Source: a virus
Virus record (IMG/VR): IMGVR_UViG_3300050821_002691
Span: 1 to 20,834 of that record
DNA: 20,834 bases
Strand: one strand, 5' to 3'
Shown here: positions 1,375-18,715 of the stretch, one piece after another
Position numbering within the stretch: position 1 is the first letter of the stretch
Layout: each line of letters starts with the position of its first letter
Notes under the pieces: generated by a model
What the model was told of the DNA's origin: nothing
The model's database searches: none
What the model saw: only the letters and a program-made list of their open reading frames with translations
Position numbers and translations under genes: made by a program

Positions 1375-2430
1375 TCAGTAGGCATTTCCGCCATACCCGT
1401 ACACCCAGGCACCAGACGAAGATTTAGCCGAAATTAGGTCGTAACCCAAAACGACTATACCCTGCTGCCCGATCTGACCCAGCGGAACTAACGAATAGAA
1501 GCCAGAAAAGTCCATGGCGGCATCTTCGCTGAGGTACAGATTCGTGTACTTACAGTTGCAAGCGAAAAGATTCCCGACCGGCGTGAAGTGGTCTGCAAAG
1601 ATCGGGATGCCCGACACGTTCAAGTTCGGGAAACTCGACCGGATCGGCGTGTCCGCTGTGTAAGAACGGCCCGGCGTAGTGAACGCCTCTTCAATCCCCT
1701 GGAAATCATTGTTCAGGGTGGCGTAGTCGGCGGGGTTCATTACGACAAACGTCGGCGCCTCGCCGCCTGCTGTGTCAGTGATTTTCGACAACAGCGACGA
1801 CATAGCCTTCCGGTTCCAGCCCAACGTAGCGGTTGAGTAGGTCGTGTTCCACGTCGTGCCAGCGCCCGCGTTGATATACTGGCCCTGAAACGCCGAATTG
1901 CCGGCCGTCGTGCGGTTGATCCCGCCGTAGGTCGGGACGTTCGTGCCGTTGTCGAACGCGTCTATGAAGCTGTTCGGATACGTCGGCTGTGCCGAGTTGT
2001 TCGTATATAGCAGCCGCGCGATGTTCTGCCGCGTCACCGCATAGGCGTCGTTCATCCTGACTTTCAGGAGCGAAACCTCGCGGTCAGTCGCTTGTAGGAT
2101 CGTTTCGCCGAAGGGCAGCGGGATTGGGACAACCCAGTAGGCTAGGTTCCACTGGCCGTTCTGGACGCCGGGGGTAACTACTGGGCTGTTAAAGCCGCCG
2201 CCGTAGTTAGTAAAGCTACCTTGCACCACGCTTTGACCCTGCAACGGGATAGTTACCTGGTTCAAACCGCCCGCAGCTTTCTGTGCATTCCCCCACAAAT
2301 AGAACAGGCTAGGAGACGCAAAGTACAGTTGTACGAACAATTTTCTGACGAAAGCGCGCCTAGTGACCGCCGTCAGCTCATTGTAGACTGACCCGGCCGA
2401 AGGGGCTACACCGATTCCAGGCAACGGCAC
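1375..2430 (-). CDS. Major capsid protein
   Basis: A 351-residue protein that I assign as the major head protein. The N-terminal NELTAVTRRAFVRKLFVQLY, the middle IPLPFGETILQATDREVSLL and the C-terminal GQQGIVVLGYDLISAKSSSG are of the kind seen in phage major capsid proteins with HK97-like folds. The fold itself is inference. It has no N-terminal delta-like extension long enough to act as a built-in scaffold, which fits the separate scaffold-like gene immediately upstream (2467-3117). The start is GTG at 2430 with AGGAGA seven to eight bases upstream (GTAGGAGAGTCCAAGTG). Size (about 37 kDa) and position after the scaffold gene support the call. The following minus-strand gene (602-1) is separated from it by the plus-strand HNH gene. 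Confidence 0.85.
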   Translation of the reverse strand: MPLPGIGVAPSAGSVYNELTAVTRRAFVRKLFVQLYFASPSLFYLWGNAQKAAGGLNQVTIPLQGQSVVQGSFTNYGGGFNSPVVTPGVQNGQWNLAYWVVPIPLPFGETILQATDREVSLLKVRMNDAYAVTRQNIARLLYTNNSAQPTYPNSFIDAFDNGTNVPTYGGINRTTAGNSAFQGQYINAGAGTTWNTTYSTATLGWNRKAMSSLLSKITDTAGGEAPTFVVMNPADYATLNNDFQGIEEAFTTPGRSYTADTPIRSSFPNLNVSGIPIFADHFTPVGNLFACNCKYTNLYLSEDAAMDFSGFYSLVPLGQIGQQGIVVLGYDLISAKSSSGAWVYGYGGNAY

Positions 2431-5010: not shown

Positions 5011-5564
5011 GGCTGGCGCCTCTCTTTGAAAAATACGGCACAGATAAGCTGGCGCATGGATATGCCGACTTCTACGAAGTCCTGCTAGGACGCTGGCGAG
5101 AAGATACAAAGCTGCTGCTGGAAATCGGCGTCGGAACGCTAAATCCTAACGCATGGTCAAACATGGTTGGGTTCGGCGGTCCTGGATATCGTCCCGGAGG
5201 TTCGTTGAGGGCCTGGCGTGACTGGATGCCGAACGCCATGATTTACGGGTTGGACACGCAGCCGGATTGCATGATCACAGACGAGGAGAGGATCACTACG
5301 ATCCTCGTTGACTCGTGCAAACCTATATCTGTGCCGTGGACAGCGGATGTCATCATAGACGATGGGTCACACAGCTACACCGACCAGATGGCGACCTTCC
5401 GCGCCCAGTGGCCGCATCTTCGATCTGGTGGCCTTTACGTGATAGAAGACCTCACAAGCCCTGAAATGATCAACAACTGGCGTGAGTTGCGTCACGCGTC
5501 TGGCGGTTCGCCGCTGTTCTTTATCGGACCGGCAAATCAGGCTGTGGTGATCGCGAAGATTTAG
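5007..5564 (+). CDS. TylF/CmcI-like class I SAM-dependent methyltransferase
   Basis: A 185-residue protein starting at GTG 5007 (GTGA overlap with the previous gene). The N-terminal FEKYGTDK and HGYADFYE are typical of the family of macrocin/mycinamicin-type O-methyltransferases. Motif I is LLEIGVG (37-43), the acidic end of strand 2 is IYGLD (79-83), the metal-site motif is DVIIDDGSH (114-122), and GGLYVIEDL (141-149) follows. These enzymes transfer methyl groups from S-adenosylmethionine to sugar or small-molecule hydroxyls, usually with a divalent metal. The substrate here is unknown; a sugar on virion, host surface or DNA is a guess based on the two glycosyltransferase-like genes in the window. 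The stop overlaps that of the convergent portal gene. It is shorter than most family members, but the core motifs are intact. Confidence 0.8.
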   Translation: MRLAPLFEKYGTDKLAHGYADFYEVLLGRWREDTKLLLEIGVGTLNPNAWSNMVGFGGPGYRPGGSLRAWRDWMPNAMIYGLDTQPDCMITDEERITTILVDSCKPISVPWTADVIIDDGSHSYTDQMATFRAQWPHLRSGGLYVIEDLTSPEMINNWRELRHASGGSPLFFIGPANQAVVIAKI

Positions 5565-7357
5565 CGCCTCTTCCCGCCGCTGTGCTCAAGCAACTTCGCG
5601 TAAACGTCGGGGTGTTTCTCTTCCAACTGCTTCATCATCGCCTCTTGCTTCGCTGCTTTCGCGCGTAATCTGGTTAGGATTATGTCGCGGTTCTGGAACG
5701 GCGCCTGCTCAATGTAGCTTTCAGGATCAACCACGCCGGCCTTCAACCCGTTCGTCAGAAGGTTCAGGTGATCATTGGCGAAGATAGGCGATGTGGTGTG
5801 GCCATCCACCACCACCCTCCCATCGTCTGGCACGTCGCCTAGAAGGAACGATGTGGCTTCGGGATGGTCTCTATCCGTCCAATAGTTGCGGCCGTCCTTA
5901 GCCTGCATGACGTGGAATTGCAGGTCTGCCGCTGAAGCGCACTGCCGTTCCGTGATCAGGGCACGATCGCCGATAGGAGCGCCGGCCGTCTTCATCATAG
6001 GATTGGCCTGCACGCCGGAGCGGACGCCAGTCTCGCCGCGCCCTGACAGCATGTTGTCGAAGCCGCTGATCATTTCCATGAGCTGGATGATCTTGTCCAC
6101 CAAAGGCAACGCCTCGGCGGGGAAATTCGGCGTCAGATCCTGTGCCGATCCTCCGGGGCCAAGGTTGAGGAACCCAGCTTGCCGCATCGCGTCATACTGT
6201 TCGTCGGTGATGCCGTCGCCAGTTAGGGCGAGGAACTTGTCCACCTGCAAGCCGAACAGACGACGGATGTCTGCGGCCGTCGTGGATAGGAAATCCTGGG
6301 GGGCGATCAGGTCTTGAATCTCAGACCGGCCCCAGATGCTTCCGTGGGTCTGGTTCGGCTGGATCAGCGTGTAGGGATGCAGACCGGAATCGCCTCCTGA
6401 GATTAGCAGGTTCGATCGGCGATATCTGGGCGCTATCAGGATATCAGGCTCGATGATCTGGATCGTGGTGTAGTCGTTCTCGCCCCACATCCATAGCTCG
6501 TGCATCATGACGCCCAGCGCGGCGTCCGTGGGACCGATGCCGCCGAAGGTCGGGTCCTGATTGAGTTGCACGATACCGCCGACCGTGGGCCTCGTGGGGC
6601 CGCCGATGCCGGTCTGGATTTGCGAGGTCGATAAGACTTGATGGAAGAAGCTGTTGTTGATGTCCGACGATGACCCCGGTGCAGCGTGCGTCATGATCCG
6701 GTCGAACAACTGCTTGGCGTCCGGCATGTGGTAGATGCGGCGCCACACCTCTGGCATCGTCAGATAGATCGTCTCGACCATCGCGGACTGGGCATCAAGG
6801 CTGGCTACGGACGGTTTGTAGACGCCGAACTGCCACGGCATGATCAGGCCGCTGGAATAGACCGGAAGGCGGTCAGGACCTTCCTGACGGACGCCCTGCT
6901 TGAGGATCGCCGCGCCGTATTTAAGGCTCTCGAATACGCCCTGAGCGAATAGGATATCAGTGTTGGTTCGCTCCCATGAGCGGGATACCAGACGCGCAGA
7001 CACCGCGCCACGTTGCAGGATTTGATCGCCGTATTCGTTCTCGAAATCCATCGCGAAGCGGATTTCGGTGGGAGAGAACAGAAGCGACGAGAGGCGGTCC
7101 ACCATCCGGTAGAGCAGGTTGAGCAGCGAGCGGGAGCCGTCCGAGCGGCCGGTCTCAATGACTTGGTTGAGGGATCGGTAGTAGGCCGCGCGAGCCGCAG
7201 AATCGGACCGGCACGTCTCGATGATCTTGATGCACTCTCGGACGAGTTGTCGGTTGTCGGATGGAAGTTCGACGAAGGCTTCTGGACGGCTCGCCATGGA
7301 TTTCTGGCGGCGACGCTCTCCGAAGGGGATGATTTCGGCGGTTTGGGTGGCGCTCAT
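5561..7357 (-). CDS. Portal protein
   Basis: A 598-residue protein with the features of phage portals. The N-terminal region has RSLLNLLYRMVDRLSSLLFS, the middle has KYGAAILKQGV and a large beta-rich wing, and the third quarter has a helical stem/crown (PLVDKIIQLMEMISGFDNML). The Ala/Lys/Glu-rich C-terminal tail (AKAAKQEAMMKQLEEKHPD) resembles portal crown ends. Portals form the dodecameric ring through which the terminase pumps DNA. ATG 7357 is chosen because it forms an ATGA overlap with the upstream stop; an in-frame GTG at 7393 would overlap the neighbour by 40 bases. The gene lies five small genes after the terminase, consistent with a head-packaging module. Its stop overlaps that of the plus-strand methyltransferase. 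Confidence 0.85.
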   Translation of the reverse strand: MSATQTAEIIPFGERRRQKSMASRPEAFVELPSDNRQLVRECIKIIETCRSDSAARAAYYRSLNQVIETGRSDGSRSLLNLLYRMVDRLSSLLFSPTEIRFAMDFENEYGDQILQRGAVSARLVSRSWERTNTDILFAQGVFESLKYGAAILKQGVRQEGPDRLPVYSSGLIMPWQFGVYKPSVASLDAQSAMVETIYLTMPEVWRRIYHMPDAKQLFDRIMTHAAPGSSSDINNSFFHQVLSTSQIQTGIGGPTRPTVGGIVQLNQDPTFGGIGPTDAALGVMMHELWMWGENDYTTIQIIEPDILIAPRYRRSNLLISGGDSGLHPYTLIQPNQTHGSIWGRSEIQDLIAPQDFLSTTAADIRRLFGLQVDKFLALTGDGITDEQYDAMRQAGFLNLGPGGSAQDLTPNFPAEALPLVDKIIQLMEMISGFDNMLSGRGETGVRSGVQANPMMKTAGAPIGDRALITERQCASAADLQFHVMQAKDGRNYWTDRDHPEATSFLLGDVPDDGRVVVDGHTTSPIFANDHLNLLTNGLKAGVVDPESYIEQAPFQNRDIILTRLRAKAAKQEAMMKQLEEKHPDVYAKLLEHSGGKRR

Positions 7358-7650
7358 GCTGGTATAGCGATCCGCACATCGCCATAAGGCCACGTCAAAC
7401 TTGCGATGGTATCATACACATAGCTACCTGGGCCGAATTCATGCCACGCGCCAGTTTGTGGGTCTTGCCTGCAAAAACCAAGCTTACCAATCGGCACCAT
7501 GGAATGGAATTCAGTCCATGGAACCCATAAAAACGGGGATGACACATGCCGGGCTACCGGCATGAGGCGACCGAACTCAGGGGCACGTAAGATAGTCGGC
7601 GTAGCTAGAGACGCCCCTAAACCAGCCAACAAACCTCGGCGACCAATCAT
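7354..7650 (-). CDS. Small protein with Tat-like N-terminal signal
   Basis: A 98-residue protein whose N terminus (MIGRRGLLAGLGASLATPTI) combines a twin-arginine pair, a mildly hydrophobic run of about 14 residues and a Pro/Arg-containing end. This resembles a Tat signal sequence, though the core is short. The remainder is rich in Trp, Pro, Phe and Gly with a single Cys. It starts at ATG 7650 (ATGA overlap with the upstream gene) and ends in an ATGA overlap with the portal start. No family recognised. A periplasmic destination is unusual for a gene between terminase and portal; the motif could also be coincidental and the protein a virion component. Confidence 0.6.
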   Translation of the reverse strand: MIGRRGLLAGLGASLATPTILRAPEFGRLMPVARHVSSPFLWVPWTEFHSMVPIGKLGFCRQDPQTGAWHEFGPGSYVYDTIASLTWPYGDVRIAIPA

Positions 7651-8610: not shown

Positions 8611-8960
8611 ACGCACCCCTTCACCGAGTATTCGCCGACATCAGCGGGCGGCGGACCAAGGCGCACGATGCACATCCCGTGATGCTTTAGCGCCAACATG
8701 GCGCATAGCGCCGCCTTGACGTGCTCGATCGTGACGTGAGGCGGATCGCCGACCACACCGACTGGCGCGACGCCAGCCATCCTCATCCCCATGGCAAGCG
8801 TCCACAGAGGCGCGTCCACGGCGCGAAGGTCCGCGCGAACGATTGGTTGGTTGGCGTCGAAGTTCTGGCACCAAGGAACGCGGCAGAAGTCTCCGGTCGG
8901 GTACCTGCATCTCTCTCGGTCATACTTGCCGACAAACGGACAGGCGGTAGGCCCGATCAT
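8604..8960 (-). CDS. Cysteine-rich hypothetical protein downstream of terminase
   Basis: A 118-residue protein with several cysteines in the N-terminal part (C7, C18, C27 and C31, ending in a CRVPWC pair), which suggests a zinc- or iron-binding cluster. A small alpha/beta-like middle follows (ADLRAVDAPLWTLAMGMRMA), then a His/Cys-containing C terminus. ATG 8960 overlaps the terminase stop (ATGA) and has GGAGG eight bases upstream. Its place right after the terminase is where accessory packaging proteins sit, but no family is recognised. Confidence 0.58.
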   Translation of the reverse strand: MIGPTACPFVGKYDRERCRYPTGDFCRVPWCQNFDANQPIVRADLRAVDAPLWTLAMGMRMAGVAPVGVVGDPPHVTIEHVKAALCAMLALKHHGMCIVRLGPPPADVGEYSVKGCVW

Positions 8961-10873
8961 CGTCCAGACCTCCAGCTCTGCTTGCGAGCCGCCTGCAATG
9001 CTCTACGGCGTGCGACAGATTGTCCGCCGAGGAAGCTTTCAAACTGATTCTGGTTATACATCTGAAACTGATCCTGGATAGATAGGCGGCGCCTTGCCGT
9101 CTCGAACTCTCTGGTGCGCTTTGCTGTGATCAGACCACGACGGGCGCGTTCGTCCCACGCTCGGACGCCCAACGCCAATGAAAATACCCGATCGTCTTTA
9201 GCCGAACCTTGAGCCTCAATAGAGTCTCCATCTCGCGCAACGGTTCGCATTTCCTCCAGCGTGTCTTGCGATCGGACTCGGAGCATTCCGTTATTGGTGA
9301 AGTCTCTAAGACGCTCGAAGATAGCTACCTTCAACTGCTGAGTCGTTTTCCACATGTACGCCTGACCTTGCGACATACTATCCGATCGCGTGTAGATATA
9401 GTTCCGCACATTCTGCTGAATGCGCGCTAGACCGCGTTCTTCGCCGGTCTTGCCGAAATATCCAAACCGCAATTGATGGCGTAGACTGGTTAGCTCCCGC
9501 CACGTCGCCTCACCAGGGCCGTTGATCTCCACGATACGATAGACCTCAGACTTGTCGCCGGCATACCAGCCTTCCAGCGAGGCGATGACCCACGCGAACT
9601 GTCGGCTATCGATCAGCGGCCACGCATACTCGGCCACTTGATCGATACCGTCGGCGAAGCAGCGGAGGACTTGGACGGCGCTGCGGTCGTTATATTCGCT
9701 GTGGCCGAACGCAACGTCGGCGGCTACGACGTAGACTGATTCCTCGACAGGCTCTTCCCAGACTTTTAGTTGCGTTGAGCGGGCGTTAGGGGATGGGAAG
9801 ACGCGGAAATCGGTGAACTCCGTGCCGGTTACGTAAGAATAAGTTTTGTATTTCCGGCTGACGTTCTTAGACGACTGGTCCGTAAGACTCTGTGGATCAA
9901 AGAATACTGATCCTGTTTGCTGAAAGCTCTCTTGTTCAGTCCAAGGCTGTTCCTGGACTCGTTCCGATGTCCCAGTAAAATCTGGATCAGCGTCGCCATC
10001 TGTGGACGCGGCGGGGTTCATCTCTCGCCTTATCCACGCGAGTTGCTCTGGCGTGATCTCATGTCCATACTGCGCCTTAACGGCGCGTATCTTCATAATT
10101 TCGTCTTTGGTGCAGGGTGGCGTGCCGTATCTTTCGAAGTCTGGCTCGTCTCGTTCAATTAACTGCCTATTGTGACTCCACCATCCGCAGAACAATCTAA
10201 CACATCCCGAGTCATTGGCAGCTTCGGTCCAGCATTCATGCCAGTAATTAAATCCTCGCGCGGTCGACTCGTCGACGAACAGACGGTTCGGATTGGTTCT
10301 GGCCATAGAATGCCGGAAGGACTCCATCCCAGCAATGTTGCCGTAATTCGACAACTCAGAACGGTGCGCCATCGCTATAGCGGAACCCGCACCCAGCGCG
10401 TTGCCACCTTTTGACTCTTTTACGCCAGCAGCCACCAGATTGACGCGAGACCTGTTGTCAAGCGTCAAAGCGTATCTATTATCGCCGACTTTACGTGGAA
10501 ACTTGAACTTTTCTGGTAGACGTTCTAGCATGTCTATCAACTCAGCACGAGCATCTGTTAGGTGAGCCGTGCTATCAAAGCACAAAGTACCAGTCATCGG
10601 AAACTTACCCAACCAGAACAGCATCAGTGCCCGGATAATGGTAGAGACGCCTAACTGTCGGCTCTTGAGCACGAGAAAATGGTGCTTATCGCGCCCCAGG
10701 CCCTCGAAGATGCCATCTATAACGGTCGTCTGCGCTCCGTATAGGTTGTCGCGGCTTAACTTCATCCACGACTCGGCGCTTTCTTTCGATTTTATTTCTA
10801 CAAAGGAAAGAAAGCTGTAGAACTGATGACGCACTTCATCGGCGTATTCTGGACTCCATCCTGACTTAGCCAT
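8957..10873 (-). CDS. Terminase large subunit
   Basis: A 638-residue DNA-packaging motor. The ATPase domain has the deviant Walker A KSRQLGVST (70-78), an SE pair at 172-173 in MAHRSELSNYG as the Walker B/catalytic-Glu candidate, and ESTARG (202-207) in the place of the coupling motif. The C-terminal RNase H-like nuclease is marked by VVAADVAFG with its Asp (about residue 390), EINGPGEATW, and KDDRVFSLALG with Asp. The protein cuts concatemeric DNA and pumps it through the portal encoded downstream. ATG 10873 overlaps the end of the HNH gene by eight bases (ATGGCTAA), with GAGG about ten bases upstream. I saw no clear small terminase nearby; the HTH protein at 20387-20596 or an unrecognised small gene could fill that role. 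Confidence 0.92.
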   Translation of the reverse strand: MAKSGWSPEYADEVRHQFYSFLSFVEIKSKESAESWMKLSRDNLYGAQTTVIDGIFEGLGRDKHHFLVLKSRQLGVSTIIRALMLFWLGKFPMTGTLCFDSTAHLTDARAELIDMLERLPEKFKFPRKVGDNRYALTLDNRSRVNLVAAGVKESKGGNALGAGSAIAMAHRSELSNYGNIAGMESFRHSMARTNPNRLFVDESTARGFNYWHECWTEAANDSGCVRLFCGWWSHNRQLIERDEPDFERYGTPPCTKDEIMKIRAVKAQYGHEITPEQLAWIRREMNPAASTDGDADPDFTGTSERVQEQPWTEQESFQQTGSVFFDPQSLTDQSSKNVSRKYKTYSYVTGTEFTDFRVFPSPNARSTQLKVWEEPVEESVYVVAADVAFGHSEYNDRSAVQVLRCFADGIDQVAEYAWPLIDSRQFAWVIASLEGWYAGDKSEVYRIVEINGPGEATWRELTSLRHQLRFGYFGKTGEERGLARIQQNVRNYIYTRSDSMSQGQAYMWKTTQQLKVAIFERLRDFTNNGMLRVRSQDTLEEMRTVARDGDSIEAQGSAKDDRVFSLALGVRAWDERARRGLITAKRTREFETARRRLSIQDQFQMYNQNQFESFLGGQSVARRRALQAARKQSWRSGR

Positions 10874-11720
10874 AGCGATTTGTCCTCACAGCGAGGTTCA
10901 TCGCTTCTTCTGCCGACCAACCCCGATCAACGATGCGGCTTCTTACTAGCTCATATTTCACGCCCTCTTTTTCTGCCGCCTGGGTGATAGTCATTCTCTC
11001 GCCTTTCCAATAGATGACCTGATTGTTCCTTCTGTTGTTCCCTTGTTGTTTTGTTGTAGCCCATCGACAATTTGACGGGCTATAGTTCTTATCGTTGTCG
11101 ATTTTATCTAAGCTATGGTTTGGCGTTGGGCGCCGCCCCATATCAGATAGAAACTGCGCATAGCCACCATCGCCACGCCACTGGTCGCATACGCCGATAC
11201 CTCTACCTCCATAGAGGTGGTATCCGCTGGCGCCTGAATGATAACATCTGGATATCATTGACTTATATGTAGCGAATTCTGGAGACCATTTCCCGCCAAC
11301 AGACTCTCCGTGCCTCGTATTTCTGGCGACCGTCAGTTCGCGCTTGTAGCAACCGCAACTTTCCGTGTTGCCAGATCGAAGGTTGTTTTGGGCAACCTGT
11401 ATTTCCTTGCCGCACGAGCACCTACACATCCACTCTCTAATTCGGCCATTAGGCACTGGGCCGACGCACCAAAGAACCGTAAGGCGCCCATAGACATCAC
11501 CTATAAGATCGAGCAGTAACTCTGGCTTCCTGGGTTTTTTAGGAGCGCACCCGCAACTTTGGGTATTCCCAGACTTCAGGTTGTTGGCACCCGTGACGTA
11601 CTCTTTGCCGCAATCGCAGCGACAGTGCCACATAGTTCTATATCTTGGCCCGGATGGAGCTTTACTCACAGCAGTCAAAAGGCCGAACCTCTGCCCTGAT
11701 ATATCATCCCACTTTTGCAT
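10866..11720 (-). CDS. HNH endonuclease with two Cys4 modules
   Basis: A 284-residue protein. Two zinc-binding modules of the same design come first: C33-x-C35-x-C37-GK ... SCGC (C56, C58), and C99-x-C101-x-C103-GK ... SCGC (C122, C124); each ends in NNL(K/R)SGNT(Q/E)SCGC. Then come YGGRGIGVCDQW, SLDKIDNDKNYSPSNCRWAT and NNRRNN, the HNH nuclease core known from many phage and intron endonucleases. The C terminus (MTITQAAEKEGVKYELVRSR) resembles a NUMOD-type helix-turn-helix for DNA recognition. The start is ATG 11720, whose A is shared with the TGA of the upstream gene. It ends inside the terminase start. It is probably a free-standing homing endonuclease next to the terminase; a packaging-linked HNH nickase is an alternative. 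Codons look more AT-rich than in the neighbours. Confidence 0.85.
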   Translation of the reverse strand: MQKWDDISGQRFGLLTAVSKAPSGPRYRTMWHCRCDCGKEYVTGANNLKSGNTQSCGCAPKKPRKPELLLDLIGDVYGRLTVLWCVGPVPNGRIREWMCRCSCGKEIQVAQNNLRSGNTESCGCYKRELTVARNTRHGESVGGKWSPEFATYKSMISRCYHSGASGYHLYGGRGIGVCDQWRGDGGYAQFLSDMGRRPTPNHSLDKIDNDKNYSPSNCRWATTKQQGNNRRNNQVIYWKGERMTITQAAEKEGVKYELVRSRIVDRGWSAEEAMNLAVRTNRYG

Positions 11721-11953
11721 CAATACTCGCCCCACACATGAATGTCGCCGACCTTCTGGATGGCCTCAACAAACTCCGACCACGGGCCTTCTGGATCGAC
11801 CACGGCCATAGCTTCCAACTTCGGCAAGTCAGTTTCCGTCATATCGAGGGGGAAGCGGCCGAACGCAGCCTTAATCTGCGCCACAACACGAGACTGCCCG
11901 CGAACCCTTGTGCCGTCAGACTTTACTGGCTGCCAGTGGATGCCAACGCTCAC
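11720..11953 (-). CDS. Hypothetical protein
   Basis: A 77-residue protein starting at GTG 11953 (GTGA overlap, with GGGAGG close upstream) and ending at a TGATG junction with the HNH gene. It begins MSVGIHWQPVKSDG, carries a basic helix (RVVAQIKAAFGRFP) and then an acidic helical part (LPKLEAMAVVDPEGPW). It looks like a compact, soluble alpha/beta protein. No family recognised, and no cysteines or membrane segments. Confidence 0.58.
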   Translation of the reverse strand: MSVGIHWQPVKSDGTRVRGQSRVVAQIKAAFGRFPLDMTETDLPKLEAMAVVDPEGPWSEFVEAIQKVGDIHVWGEY

Positions 11954-15072: not shown

Positions 15073-15314
15073 TCCATCCCTCCTGCCGCCTTGACGAATA
15101 CCTGGCCGCTGTCTCGGACTTCCTTCACGGTGTCGCGGGCGTTATGCTCGCGATAAAATGCCAGCGTCGCAACGCAGCAAATCTCGAATGGCGCTTCGTC
15201 TAGAGCGCGGCGGACCGTCACTGGTAGGGCGTCGTAGGCACGCATCTGACGCGCGCGGTCCGCCACGCCGGAGAAGTCGTAGCCTGGGACTGCGACGGAG
15301 TTACCCTGCGGCAT
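14940..15314 (-). CDS. Hypothetical protein with doubtful C terminus
   Basis: A 124-residue frame beginning at ATG 15314, which overlaps the end of the glycosyltransferase-HNH fusion by 14 bases. The first 80 residues look genuine (ADRARQMRAYDALPVTVRRA; two adjacent Cys at EICCVATLAFYREHN; then a helix). The last 44 (SMIPSSSSRTRIASRGSG onward) are Ser/Arg/Leu-rich and coincide with the out-of-frame neighbour 14776-15072, so they may be an antiframe by-product. A frameshift near 15060-15090, natural or from sequencing, would end this gene just past the neighbour's start. The natural end is thus uncertain. Confidence 0.5.
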   Translation of the reverse strand: MPQGNSVAVPGYDFSGVADRARQMRAYDALPVTVRRALDEAPFEICCVATLAFYREHNARDTVKEVRDSGQVFVKAAGGMECSMIPSSSSRTRIASRGSGCRTLTRKSSRLLLLAPTVPTVAEY

Positions 15315-15846
15315 CTTCTTCTGGCTCGTCTTCCGGCCTATCTGGCGGCCCGTCGGGGAAATTGAGAACTGCAAATTTACCAAAGTGTTTAGTGGCGCCG
15401 GCATCATATGCGATGGCGGCATCTGTTGCTGACGGGAATGTCCCCAGATGGACGTCCTTTTGGGACACGCTTAACTTCGCCGTCCAGTTTCCAGAGCGCT
15501 CTTCTGTTACACCCCTGAACCCGCTTCGTCCTATCACGAAGGACTTATTTGCGCAGTTCTGTTCCCTAGACGCCTTCCTTAGATTGACCCATCTATTATC
15601 CATTCCGTCTCTATTCACGTGGTCAATTTCATGGCTGGGCCACTCACCTGTCATGAGAAGCCACGCAACCCTATGGGCGGCATACCGAACCCTGGAGACT
15701 CTCAGATCAATGTAACCCCCTGTAGTTTTATGACCAACAACTCCTCCAATACGACCTTTCCCATACTTATTCGGCTTTACTCTCCATGTGAACAAACCGC
15801 TTTCTGGGTCGTAGTTCCATAGTGACGCAGCCATATCATACGTCAT
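15301..15846 (-). other. HNH-AP2 homing-endonuclease module, C-terminal part of the fusion gene
   Basis: Residues 486-666 of the 15301-17301 protein reproduce a complete free-standing HNH-AP2 endonuclease. It begins MTYDMAASLWNYDPESGLF, continues with AAHRVAWLLMTGEWPSHEID and HVNRDGMDNRWVNLRKASRE (HNH_3-like), and ends with the AP2-like DNA-binding GFRGVTEERSGNWTAKL and LGTFPSATDAAIAYD. ATG 15846 is a possible internal start but has only a weak ribosome-binding site. The stretch looks AT-richer than the preceding glycosyltransferase part, consistent with a mobile gene captured at the 3' end. Confidence 0.72.
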
Positions 15847-17301
15847 AACTTTTGCTACTTGTCCCAAAATAGTTATAGGACCGTCGCGCTTAGTAGTTTT
15901 CTCGGTAAGAGCTATGACCATCCTATCAAACACAGGTCCCCAAGAACAATCTAGACCCTGCCTCATGATCTTTGTCTTGGGATACCAAAGAGCCTGATGA
16001 CCTACGCGACCCATTCTATAATCGCCGCCAAGCCTAGACAGCGGAACCCAGCATTCGATGCCAGTCGCAGCCGCTAGATGCGCAACGAAAGACTCGCACG
16101 AGATAACGAGATCGACCTCGCGCAAGATCGCCACCGTATCGGTTGAATCCTTGATCCAGTTGGAAAGATCGCGGATTAACGAAGCACACCCAGCGTCATG
16201 AAGATCCTTCACGCGCTCCCCAACCTGGACACTGTAAATTTGAATGCCAGGCACCTGATACAGCGCCAAAAACTCGGTTACGGGGATAGACCGATACTTA
16301 TCTATATCGTTCATCGGACTGCCGGCATAAGCAATCGCGATGTTGAACCGTCCTGGTATCTTCCATCCTTGCGGAACACCAGACCGGCATGGCGGCATCT
16401 CCCACACCTGCCGTTGATCCCGTATTTGCTCCGTTGTAAGGCCAAGAGCATCAGGAAGACTGACAACCGGGCACCAATACGCCGCGATCGGAAACGTCGG
16501 CGACTGCGGGATAACCTCGACGTTCTTCAGCCCAGAGAACGCCGATGTCATCATGCGGAGGATTTCAGGCTGCACGCGGAATATCAGCTTCTTGACGCGC
16601 TTGGATGCGGCGGAGATGAACCGCGCAAAACTCAAAGTATCCCCAGCACCCTGGTCAGCCTCGACCAGCAATTCCACGCCGGTCTCGCCGTCCCACTTGA
16701 TATACGGCATAGAAAGGAACTGGGGGATTCTGTAGGCGAATCGCGAGTGGAAATGCCTCAACCCCTCCGCGTAATCGCCGGCAAACAGGTGAGCAAACGC
16801 CAGGCCAGTTTCAATGATCGGCTCCTTGGACATCTCGAACGCCATCTTGGCGTATTCTAGGGACTCACCGATCTTTCCCTGTATGGACAGCGCCAAGGAC
16901 AGGTTCGTCCACGCGAACGCGCGACCTTCCTGATCTAGTGTCGGATCGGCCTCCAGCAACTTGATTGCATCTCGTGCGACCGTCTCAGCCTCGTCTATCT
17001 GGCCATTATTTACCAGACGATGCCCAAGGTTGACCATCGCCTTGGCTTGCAGTTCTGGCGTCAGGTCGCCTTTCTCGTCGCCGGTGGGGCATTCCAGGCA
17101 GCGTCGGAATGCCGAGATGGACGCCGGCAGTTGGTGTAGATCGGCCAGCGCATTCCCCATGGCGTACCAGCCCACAGCCATCGTGGGATCGGCGACTGTA
17201 GCGCTACAAAGCAAGCGATAGGCGAGTTGCGTGTCCGACTTGACTACTTCTATCGCCTTATTGTGGAATGATATCGATTGATTGCGCGCCTCGATGTTCA
17301 T
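15301..17301 (-). CDS. TPR-glycosyltransferase fused to HNH-AP2 endonuclease
   Basis: A 666-residue fusion. Residues about 1-200 are TPR-like helical repeats (GWYAMGNALADLHQLPASIS; AWTNLSLALSIQGKIGESLE). Residues about 210-470 resemble the heptosyl/O-GlcNAc-type (GT-B) transferase that often follows TPRs in phages and bacteria: KWDGETGVELLVEADQGAGD, NIAIAYAGSP, then VDLVISCESFVAHLAAATGI, and a final WYPKTKIMRQ. Residues 486-666 are a full HNH-AP2 endonuclease. The TPR part would hold a partner or acceptor, and the GT part would glycosylate an unknown target in the cytoplasm. It starts at ATG 17301 (ATGA overlap with the upstream gene; GGAGG seven bases before). No stop or break separates the parts. 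The fusion is unusual and may be a recent capture; the GT C terminus appears complete. Confidence 0.78.
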   Translation of the reverse strand: MNIEARNQSISFHNKAIEVVKSDTQLAYRLLCSATVADPTMAVGWYAMGNALADLHQLPASISAFRRCLECPTGDEKGDLTPELQAKAMVNLGHRLVNNGQIDEAETVARDAIKLLEADPTLDQEGRAFAWTNLSLALSIQGKIGESLEYAKMAFEMSKEPIIETGLAFAHLFAGDYAEGLRHFHSRFAYRIPQFLSMPYIKWDGETGVELLVEADQGAGDTLSFARFISAASKRVKKLIFRVQPEILRMMTSAFSGLKNVEVIPQSPTFPIAAYWCPVVSLPDALGLTTEQIRDQRQVWEMPPCRSGVPQGWKIPGRFNIAIAYAGSPMNDIDKYRSIPVTEFLALYQVPGIQIYSVQVGERVKDLHDAGCASLIRDLSNWIKDSTDTVAILREVDLVISCESFVAHLAAATGIECWVPLSRLGGDYRMGRVGHQALWYPKTKIMRQGLDCSWGPVFDRMVIALTEKTTKRDGPITILGQVAKVMTYDMAASLWNYDPESGLFTWRVKPNKYGKGRIGGVVGHKTTGGYIDLRVSRVRYAAHRVAWLLMTGEWPSHEIDHVNRDGMDNRWVNLRKASREQNCANKSFVIGRSGFRGVTEERSGNWTAKLSVSQKDVHLGTFPSATDAAIAYDAGATKHFGKFAVLNFPDGPPDRPEDEPEEDAAG

Positions 17302-17774
17302 TCCGCCGCCTCCGAGAGTGCGGGGTGGAGATGTTCGACTTGAACGGGACCGCGTATATTGACCACCATATTACATGCCAACTGGACGGCTTCCTCCGCT
17401 GACCTGCCGAGCCGCATTGCGGTCTCCGCGACAATGCAGGCGGACTGACTACCTATCACCGAAATCTTACCTTCTGGCACGAACCCAGATACGCCTTTTG
17501 AGTTTCGCCAAAGTGTGCCGTCTGGTTTCAGAAGCAGGATATCTAGCGAGTTGTCTCCTTCCGCGTCGGATAAGAATGCCGGCTGCTTTTCTGGTCTGCC
17601 CTCTCTAAGCCACTCCATCGCCAGCCAGCAATCGGCGGTGAACCCAGACATGCCAGCTAACGTGCCGTCTTGCAGGCGAAGTATCTTTGGAAATACGCAC
17701 ATCGAAAATAGCGATCCTGATATCTCAGCGCTATCGGCAGCCATTACGCCGTCCTTTACGGCTATCAGAGTCAC
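17298..17774 (-). CDS. HslV/Anbu-like Ntn-hydrolase (proteasome-type peptidase)
   Basis: A 158-residue protein. With the start at GTG 17774 (GTGA overlap with the upstream stop) it begins Met-Thr, so Met removal would expose an N-terminal Thr nucleophile as in HslV. In mature numbering the motifs are T1 (TLIAVKDGVMAADS), D13, G19, K29 (PKILRLQDG), a Gly-rich AGMSGFTAD (39-47) and IGSQSA with S108. The D13-to-K29 spacing of 16 equals HslV's D17-to-K33. An in-frame TTG at 17780 would add two residues before the Thr. The length is close to the 174 residues of HslV. It would be a cytoplasmic threonine peptidase; no HslU-type ATPase is seen here. Its target (host protein or phage assembly component) is unknown. 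It overlaps the fusion gene by ATGA. Confidence 0.78.
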   Translation of the reverse strand: MTLIAVKDGVMAADSAEISGSLFSMCVFPKILRLQDGTLAGMSGFTADCWLAMEWLREGRPEKQPAFLSDAEGDNSLDILLLKPDGTLWRNSKGVSGFVPEGKISVIGSQSACIVAETAMRLGRSAEEAVQLACNMVVNIRGPVQVEHLHPALSEAAE

Positions 17775-18715
17775 CGCCAAACCCCCATCGGCAATGGCGC
17801 CGCACTCTCCATCTTCGCGATACGCCCAATCGCGGCGTCACTGGCAGCGCGGCCCTGCGGCGGGGCCTCAGCCTTGTCTAGCGCGCCGCGCAGAGCCTTG
17901 CGGGCCGGCTGGTTTACCTTGCCGCCAGCGATGTGGCCGATGACGCGCTCGACTTCCTGGTGGATTGCGTCGGTGGGGTTGGTCGGCGCGGGATCGTCGC
18001 TTATTTGGGCCGGCAGAGCAATGGGCGTGACATACCTAGAGTCAATCGGTGCATCGTCATGCGTCGCTGGTACATTGAACGTCGCGGGCTTGGGATCGTC
18101 TACTGGGCCGCCGGTGCAGGGGTCGAATGCGACGACGACAGGCCCCGAGTTACCGGTCAGAAGAGGCCATTGGGCGAGAGTGTGGCCCGCGCGGTGCATC
18201 TCGGCATAATCGCGCAGCTTACGGTTCTCTGCCTCTAGCTCGGCGATGCGGGTCGTTTCGTGTAAGACGCGTTGCCCTGGTTCGCCGTCGAATAGCGGCG
18301 GTCCCAACTCGTCGGGCCACCAGACGCGATGCCCAGCCATAGCTCGGCCTTCCGATTCGTCGCGCCACTCTGCCGGGCCAAGGTAGCGATATTCCGACGT
18401 CTCGGCTGCCGACATAGCCCGGGCATCACCATGAGCCAGCCATGAGCCATCACACCATTCCCAAGGCTCCGGCGTGTTTGTGGGTATGTCCAGCAGCCAG
18501 TGATAGGTCTTGTCGGCATGCTCCGGCGGCGGTCGGAGTTCACCAGCAACCGCAGCCATTACTGCCGGCGCCGCCGTTCCTTCTGCGCCGCTCATGGCAT
18601 TCTCCTGCAATATCCTCAGAAACGAATTGGCGCCGTAGAGTTCGGCCATGGTGCCATGAGCGACATTCTCCAACAATCGGCGGGTGACCTCGTTCAGCTC
18701 GTTCTCAATGCTCAT
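17771..18715 (-). CDS. Hypothetical protein with coiled-coil segment
   Basis: A 314-residue protein starting at ATG 18715 with GGGAGG upstream (ATGA overlap). The N-terminal part is helical (ENELNEVTRRLLENVAHGTM). A Trp-rich middle follows (PEPWEWCDGSWLAHGD; AMAGHRVWWPDELGP). Then comes a short coiled coil (TTRIAELEAENRKLRDYAEM), and finally an Asp/Pro/Ala-rich, largely disordered end. No known family. Its length and layout (helix, compact Trp-rich part, coiled coil, disordered tail) fit a phage accessory or structural protein, with no firm evidence for either. Confidence 0.6.
   Translation of the reverse strand: MSIENELNEVTRRLLENVAHGTMAELYGANSFLRILQENAMSGAEGTAAPAVMAAVAGELRPPPEHADKTYHWLLDIPTNTPEPWEWCDGSWLAHGDARAMSAAETSEYRYLGPAEWRDESEGRAMAGHRVWWPDELGPPLFDGEPGQRVLHETTRIAELEAENRKLRDYAEMHRAGHTLAQWPLLTGNSGPVVVAFDPCTGGPVDDPKPATFNVPATHDDAPIDSRYVTPIALPAQISDDPAPTNPTDAIHQEVERVIGHIAGGKVNQPARKALRGALDKAEAPPQGRAASDAAIGRIAKMESAAPLPMGVWR

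Follow-up and report, generated by a model that had tools for sequence, protein, structure and literature searches.

The window, i.e., the whole analyzed stretch of 20,834 nucleotides from the IMG/VR virus record IMGVR_UViG_3300050821_002691, carries on its minus strand a GTG-initiated gene for a proteasome-like peptidase of the PPH type (17298..17774, 158 amino acids plus stop), which is flanked by two overlapping genes of the same strand. The upstream gene (17771..18715, minus strand; 314 amino acids) has no match in PHROG or Pfam, and its TGA (17773-17771) forms a GTGA overlap with the GTG of the peptidase gene (17774-17772; overlap at 17771..17774, minus strand). The downstream gene (15301..17301, minus strand; phrog_99) combines TPR repeats with a C-terminal HNH endonuclease part, possibly a homing-endonuclease fusion, and its ATG at 17301 shares an ATGA overlap with the peptidase stop. 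From these overlaps at both ends of the peptidase gene, the three genes look translationally coupled. The same strand bears genes for the terminase large subunit (8957..10873, minus strand), directly preceded by an HNH endonuclease gene (10866-11735, minus strand; phrog_374), for the portal protein (5561..7393, minus strand) and for the major capsid protein (1375..2430, minus strand). Relative to these packaging and head genes, the peptidase gene stands upstream, and it does not fall between portal and capsid.

Start codon, family and fold

A prior sequence-only reading had placed the start at the GTG at 17774 within the GTGA overlap, yielding a predicted protein that begins Met-Thr, and this is borne out by the sequence, with the aligned starts of relatives in agreement. 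There is also an in-frame TTG two codons 5' of the GTG (17780); the GTG is favored because a ribosome-binding-site-like GGGGG, read from the sequence (17782..17786, minus strand), stands 7 nucleotides before it, versus only 1 nucleotide before the TTG. Across the 31 related IMG/VR contigs, which include some near duplicates, the aligned start is in every case ATG, GTG or TTG, followed by Thr (25) or Ser (6). In named phages, sampled as 15 genes from 13 of the 26 records found by tblastn (the second PPH copies of W09 and W12 being left out), the aligned residue is always Thr (12) or Ser (3), and a start codon precedes it in 14 of the 15 genes. The exception is an ATA at L072 301-303 (Brevundimonas phage Kabachok), a record whose annotation begins 27 bases later, such that the Thr would be lost. 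The start codon directly before the Thr or Ser in relatives also upholds the earlier proposal that no propeptide is needed.

At the level of sequence profiles, the window protein is recognized by phrog_1040 ("peptidase HslV family"; E 5.3e-22, residues 1-153) and by the Pfam Proteasome model PF00227 (23.2 bits; cut-off 22.4), with zero matches in NCBIfam, including its curated HslV model, at E up to 10. All 27 aligned members are recognized by phrog_1040 and just 8 of the 27 by Pfam at E 0.01; however, phrog_1040 is broad, scoring also in 9 of 14 control genomes, and hence does not single out PPHs by itself. A single-sequence search of the PDB returned designed repeats and a lectin at the top, with weak proteasome matches, whereas the profile of the 27 aligned members retrieved HslV as the top match (E 1.8e-8), and hhalign of the profile against E. 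coli HslV gave E 3.6e-9. Relatives recovered by tblastn lie in 26 phage records, several already so annotated, and the window as a whole has no megablast match among phages. Scans of genome contigs confirmed no relative, a result that is uninformative given that bacterial and prophage copies are already known (PMC8665760, PMC4936722), such as the "proteasome subunit beta" three genes before the terminase in a published Pseudomonas prophage table (PMC4936722).

Multiple copies also occur within single phages: phrog_1040 matches more than one place in 4 of the 13 phage records searched. Caulobacter phage C1 (MZ574429.2) has three different PPH genes, gp345, gp097 and gp001 (L060, L074, L075), all of which keep the Thr/Ser, Asp and Lys; gp001 recurs in the other terminal repeat, and gp345 alone carries an NTN hydrolase annotation. 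Vibrio phage 501E54-1 has another PPH-like frame (L076 3541-4095) that is broken by a stop codon; its annotation splits the frame into two separate proteins, neither with a named function.

An AlphaFold2 monomer model built from the members' alignment (mean pLDDT 86.7, pTM 0.83) found exclusively proteasome, HslV or BPH chains among the 50 Foldseek matches listed. Superposition with VIA-align gave S. aureus HslV at Z 18.1, with an rmsd of 2.6 for 144 residues, and HslV overall at Z about 17-18; in many of the rows for HslV and proteasome chains, the alignment opens with model residue 2 opposite residue 1 of the chain. The second helix (H2) is absent from the model, which has only a 4-residue helix between the helix at 46-57 and the strand at 78-82, in a stretch of low confidence (block pLDDT 64 and 72); the C-terminal helix, also of low confidence, spans just 5 residues, 152-156. 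The HslV/proteasome fold proposed earlier is thus corroborated by HMM and superposition alike (phrog_1040, PF00227, Foldseek and the VIA Z of 18.1), and membership of the window protein in this family and fold is close to certain. The proposal had named both HslV and Anbu as the type; the HslV half stands, but Anbu is not the nearest among the matches listed by Foldseek and VIA. The fold also admits a reading in which the protein catalyzes protein ligation or transpeptidation in place of hydrolysis, in that the archaeal connectase proves a proteasome-like fold able to ligate (PMC8665760). However, in the strand pattern of the model, no connectase-type insertion is seen between strands 3 and 4, and we consider a ligase highly improbable.

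The active site and the second triad

The alignments place Thr-2 (17769..17771, minus strand) over HslV Thr1 as the predicted nucleophile of the mature protein, Asp-14 (17733..17735, minus strand) at Asp17, Lys-30 (17685..17687, minus strand) at Lys33 and Gly-44 (17643..17645, minus strand) at Gly47 of the oxyanion hole. Over 27 aligned viral members, namely the window and 26 relatives (L011 and L025 as near duplicates and L014, L015 and L016 with truncated or frameshifted C-termini being left out), these positions hold Thr in 23 and Ser in 4, Asp in 26 and Glu in 1, Lys in all 27, and Gly in 24 and Ser in 3. Nearly all aligned members therefore keep the Thr or Ser, the Asp and the Lys, in line with the sequence-only reading, so that neither of the two outcomes that would have refuted it, a different predicted fold or homologues without these residues, was observed; of the conserved triad spacing that it had claimed, the Asp-to-Lys distance of 16 is the same as in HslV, but the Thr-to-Asp distance is 12 as opposed to 16. 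As the IMG/VR relatives were found mostly with patterns containing KDGVMAAD or its core, the conservation of the Asp among them is partly a matter of selection. The named phages, found by tblastn and covering 13 of the 26 records, are free of this pattern bias.

Unlike these positions, the proteasomal second triad, Asp166/Ser129, is not retained in the window protein, which has Val-137 (17364..17366, minus strand) at the Asp166 position. Counted by eye from the alignment rows, this column holds Asp in 23, Cys in 2, Glu in 1 and Val in 1 of the 27 members, the Val being that of the window, and Asp in all 12 of the named-phage rows (L066, L071 and L072, which nearly duplicate included rows, being left out). 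Additionally, among the rows aligned, an insertion of 2 residues lengthens the Ser129 loop in only the window protein and L002, its nearest relative at 38% identity. Proteasome activity drops strongly with D166N and, in the archaeal enzyme, is blocked by D166A (PMC4792962). Hence, the Val together with the loop insertion suggests that peptidase activity in the window protein may be weak or altered.

These two changes are also what speaks for a catalytically weak or dead protein that would act by binding, for instance by co-assembling with the HslV of the host and spoiling it. This is set against the presence of the Thr1, Asp17, Lys33 and Gly47 equivalents, all four, in the window protein and against the Cys that the alignment places at the Asp166 position of E. 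coli HslV itself; a weak or dead enzyme appears unlikely to us on this balance. The loss of Asp166 was likewise rejected as proof of inactivity on account of that Cys, which, as judged by the HslV alignment only, shows that an active relative can apparently dispense with Asp166. No assay of any PPH was found in the open-licence literature searched; the window protein is probably an active peptidase.

Unfoldases and genomic neighbors

The absence of a visible unfoldase, as previously suggested, was recovered on a wider sample: the HslU/Clp-type family AAA_2 was found in 0 of 34 PPH-bearing records, the window included, as against 14 of 14 controls, although many of these records, again including the window, may be fragments. 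The sample comprises the window, 27 IMG/VR contigs and 6 phage genomes, with L011, L014, L015 and L016 left out. The general AAA family PF00004 does match in 9 of the 34 records, in 6 of them over its cut-off; most of these matches are partial P-loops, but they are nearly full-domain in W06 (E 1.2e-13), in G012 and in one case in G024, on account of which an unfoldase of another kind is possible in PPH-bearing records. One PF00004 match over the cut-off falls in the gene directly before the PPH of Roseobacter phage DSS3P8 (gp106, L062 5489-6004), a small AAA/P-loop protein gene that overlaps the PPH gene start and whose annotation reads hypothetical, NK superfamily, AAA domain.

The lack of an HslU/Clp-type unfoldase in these 34 records means that an ATPase of the host could be borrowed, and one alternative accordingly sees the window protein as a phage HslV that docks on the HslU, or on a different ATPase, of its host and so turns the unfoldase on substrates chosen by the phage. 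Consistent with this, HslV tops the solved folds by Z, and the window protein lacks Asp166 as HslV does. However, its identity to HslV is just ~19-25%, the second helix of HslV is missing from the model, and Fuchs et al. report that a co-occurring AAA+ partner was not found (PMC8665760). We regard docking on a host ATPase as doubtful. A more specific scenario, in which the subclade of the window and L002 would have moved from the second triad in the direction of an HslV-like site, co-assembling with host HslUV or borrowing its ATPase to retarget host degradation, strikes us as still less probable.

The position of the gene relative to the head module bears on another alternative, namely a prohead maturation or scaffold-degrading protease of the window phage. 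In its favor, a head, packaging or connector gene occurs within two genes of the PPH in 6 of 13 relatives scanned, viz. capsid and head-tail adaptor in L002, adaptor in L016 and L018, small terminase in L020, portal in L023, and large terminase and portal in L024; these neighbors come from a PHROGs scan of 20 proteins chosen by eye, with ORFs called by simple scripts. Further, the distance between PPH and terminase is modestly below random (Fisher P 0.03 over 10 lineage groups drawn up informally; 0.018 without the window). This test used 17 records treated as linear, i.e., the 16 of 34 with phrog_2 at no less than 70 bits (phrog_2 reached E 0.001 in 20 of the 34, of which the 4 weak ones were set aside) plus the window, whose terminase was missed by phrog_2 and found otherwise. 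Also, the PHROGs scan recognized no protease family among the other 19 window ORFs.

Against it, the PPH of the window itself is not close to the terminase (P 0.70) and does not lie between portal and capsid, and elsewhere the PPH adjoins exonuclease (L007, and by similarity L005, L009, L013 and L039), endolysin (L004), PhoH (L036), HNH (L010) or DNA-transfer (L021) genes. More tellingly, MW202753 and MW202825 (the latter record labeled UNVERIFIED_CONTAM), which are the closest phages in the collection, share with the window the terminase (38/37% identity), portal (28/29%) and capsid (34/33%), but neither has a match to phrog_1040 at E up to 1. An essential part in head maturation is therefore unlikely: the PPH is an accessory gene in the window lineage, outside the core head machinery. 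On this comparison, the maturation role that had been floated earlier is disfavored and was rejected as the main role, and we hold a prohead protease to be very improbable.

Genomic context in general was set aside as a clue to function, as the lineages differ in having head, lysis, exonuclease, PhoH or HNH neighbors. In L036, L038, L044, L063 and L071, the PPH has a PhoH-like gene next to it or no more than three genes away, as identified by PHROGs (L036), by clustering with L036 (L038, L044, L063) or by annotation (L063, L071).

Proposed function and comparison with known systems

The reading that we favor, and which we hold to be reasonably probable as a whole, is that of an accessory N-terminal-threonine peptidase of the PPH type without an unfoldase of its own. 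The peptidase would be made in coupling with its neighboring genes and act during infection. Its Met1 would be removed by the host methionine aminopeptidase, thereby exposing Thr1 with no propeptide needed; removal of the Met is known from E. coli HslV, and the specificity of methionine aminopeptidase is known as well. Thr1 would then be activated by the equivalents of Lys33 and Asp17, with the Gly47 equivalent providing the oxyanion hole, and the subunits probably form a ring as those of HslV and BPH do. Such an assembly could hydrolyze peptides and proteins that are small or unfolded, with no unfoldase dedicated to it in the phage; as a guess, its most likely substrates during infection are proteins of phage or host that are unfolded or short-lived. 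That two near relatives lack the PPH narrows its role to an accessory one, as opposed to core head maturation. Further, being compact, with its start and triad fixed and the Asp166 position different, the window PPH offers a clean test of the need for the second triad in an enzyme without a propeptide.

The sequence-only reading had presented the gene as a novelty with a new target, and this finds no support in the literature and in other phages. The PPH family of phages was described in 2021 by Fuchs, Alva and Lupas (PMC8665760), HslV genes without HslU were reported in 2020 in a jumbo-phage paper (PMC7823757), and relatives are present in 26 phage records. Hence, the window protein is not a novel kind of protein; rather, a known phage family gains another member. 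In the 2021 paper, PPHs are described as proteins of ~140 residues from tailed phages with a Proteobacterial host, with Thr/Ser1, Asp17, Lys33 and Gly47 on a proteasome-like beta-sheet core, the propeptide and H2 missing and, unlike RPC, no C-terminal extension (PMC8665760). The window protein is assigned to the PPH family by those of the published features that concern sequence, fold and origin in a tailed phage.

Among the related systems, Anbu differs in its long C-terminal helix H5 with a coiled-coil contact, which the 158-amino-acid window protein does not have. The RPC shares the absence of H2 (PMC8665760) and differs in its C-terminal extension, which is absent from the window protein, yet present in L063 and L071, two of the relatives from Vibrio phages. 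A strongly basic Lys/Arg tail, e.g., PKKRKK, is found at the C-terminus of many PPHs (L003-L009, L011, L013, L023, L069) but not of the window protein. The BPH of Thiobacillus denitrificans is the top Foldseek match, among the matches listed, and is a group I neighbor of PPH, but it comes from a bacterium, and its pore loop is acidic and longer (PMC8665760). HslV shares the fold, the Thr1-Asp17-Lys33 triad and, in E. coli, the Met-Thr start and the lack of an Asp at Asp166; the window protein differs from it in its low identity, in a Thr-to-Asp distance shorter by 4 residues, in the missing H2, and in having no NCBIfam match; nor was an hslU gene found in its record, which may be a fragment. 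From the PPHs themselves, the window protein differs in its Val at Asp166, which is Asp in most of the relatives aligned, and in the Ser129-loop insertion that it has in common with L002 only. In other respects, it resembles them: it is short (157 residues without the Met), with neither propeptide nor C-terminal extension, has no HslU/Clp-type partner found for it in a record that may be a fragment, lacks H2 in the model, albeit in a low-confidence stretch, retains the core with the catalytic triad and Gly47, and stems from a tailed phage, with terminase, portal and capsid genes in the window.
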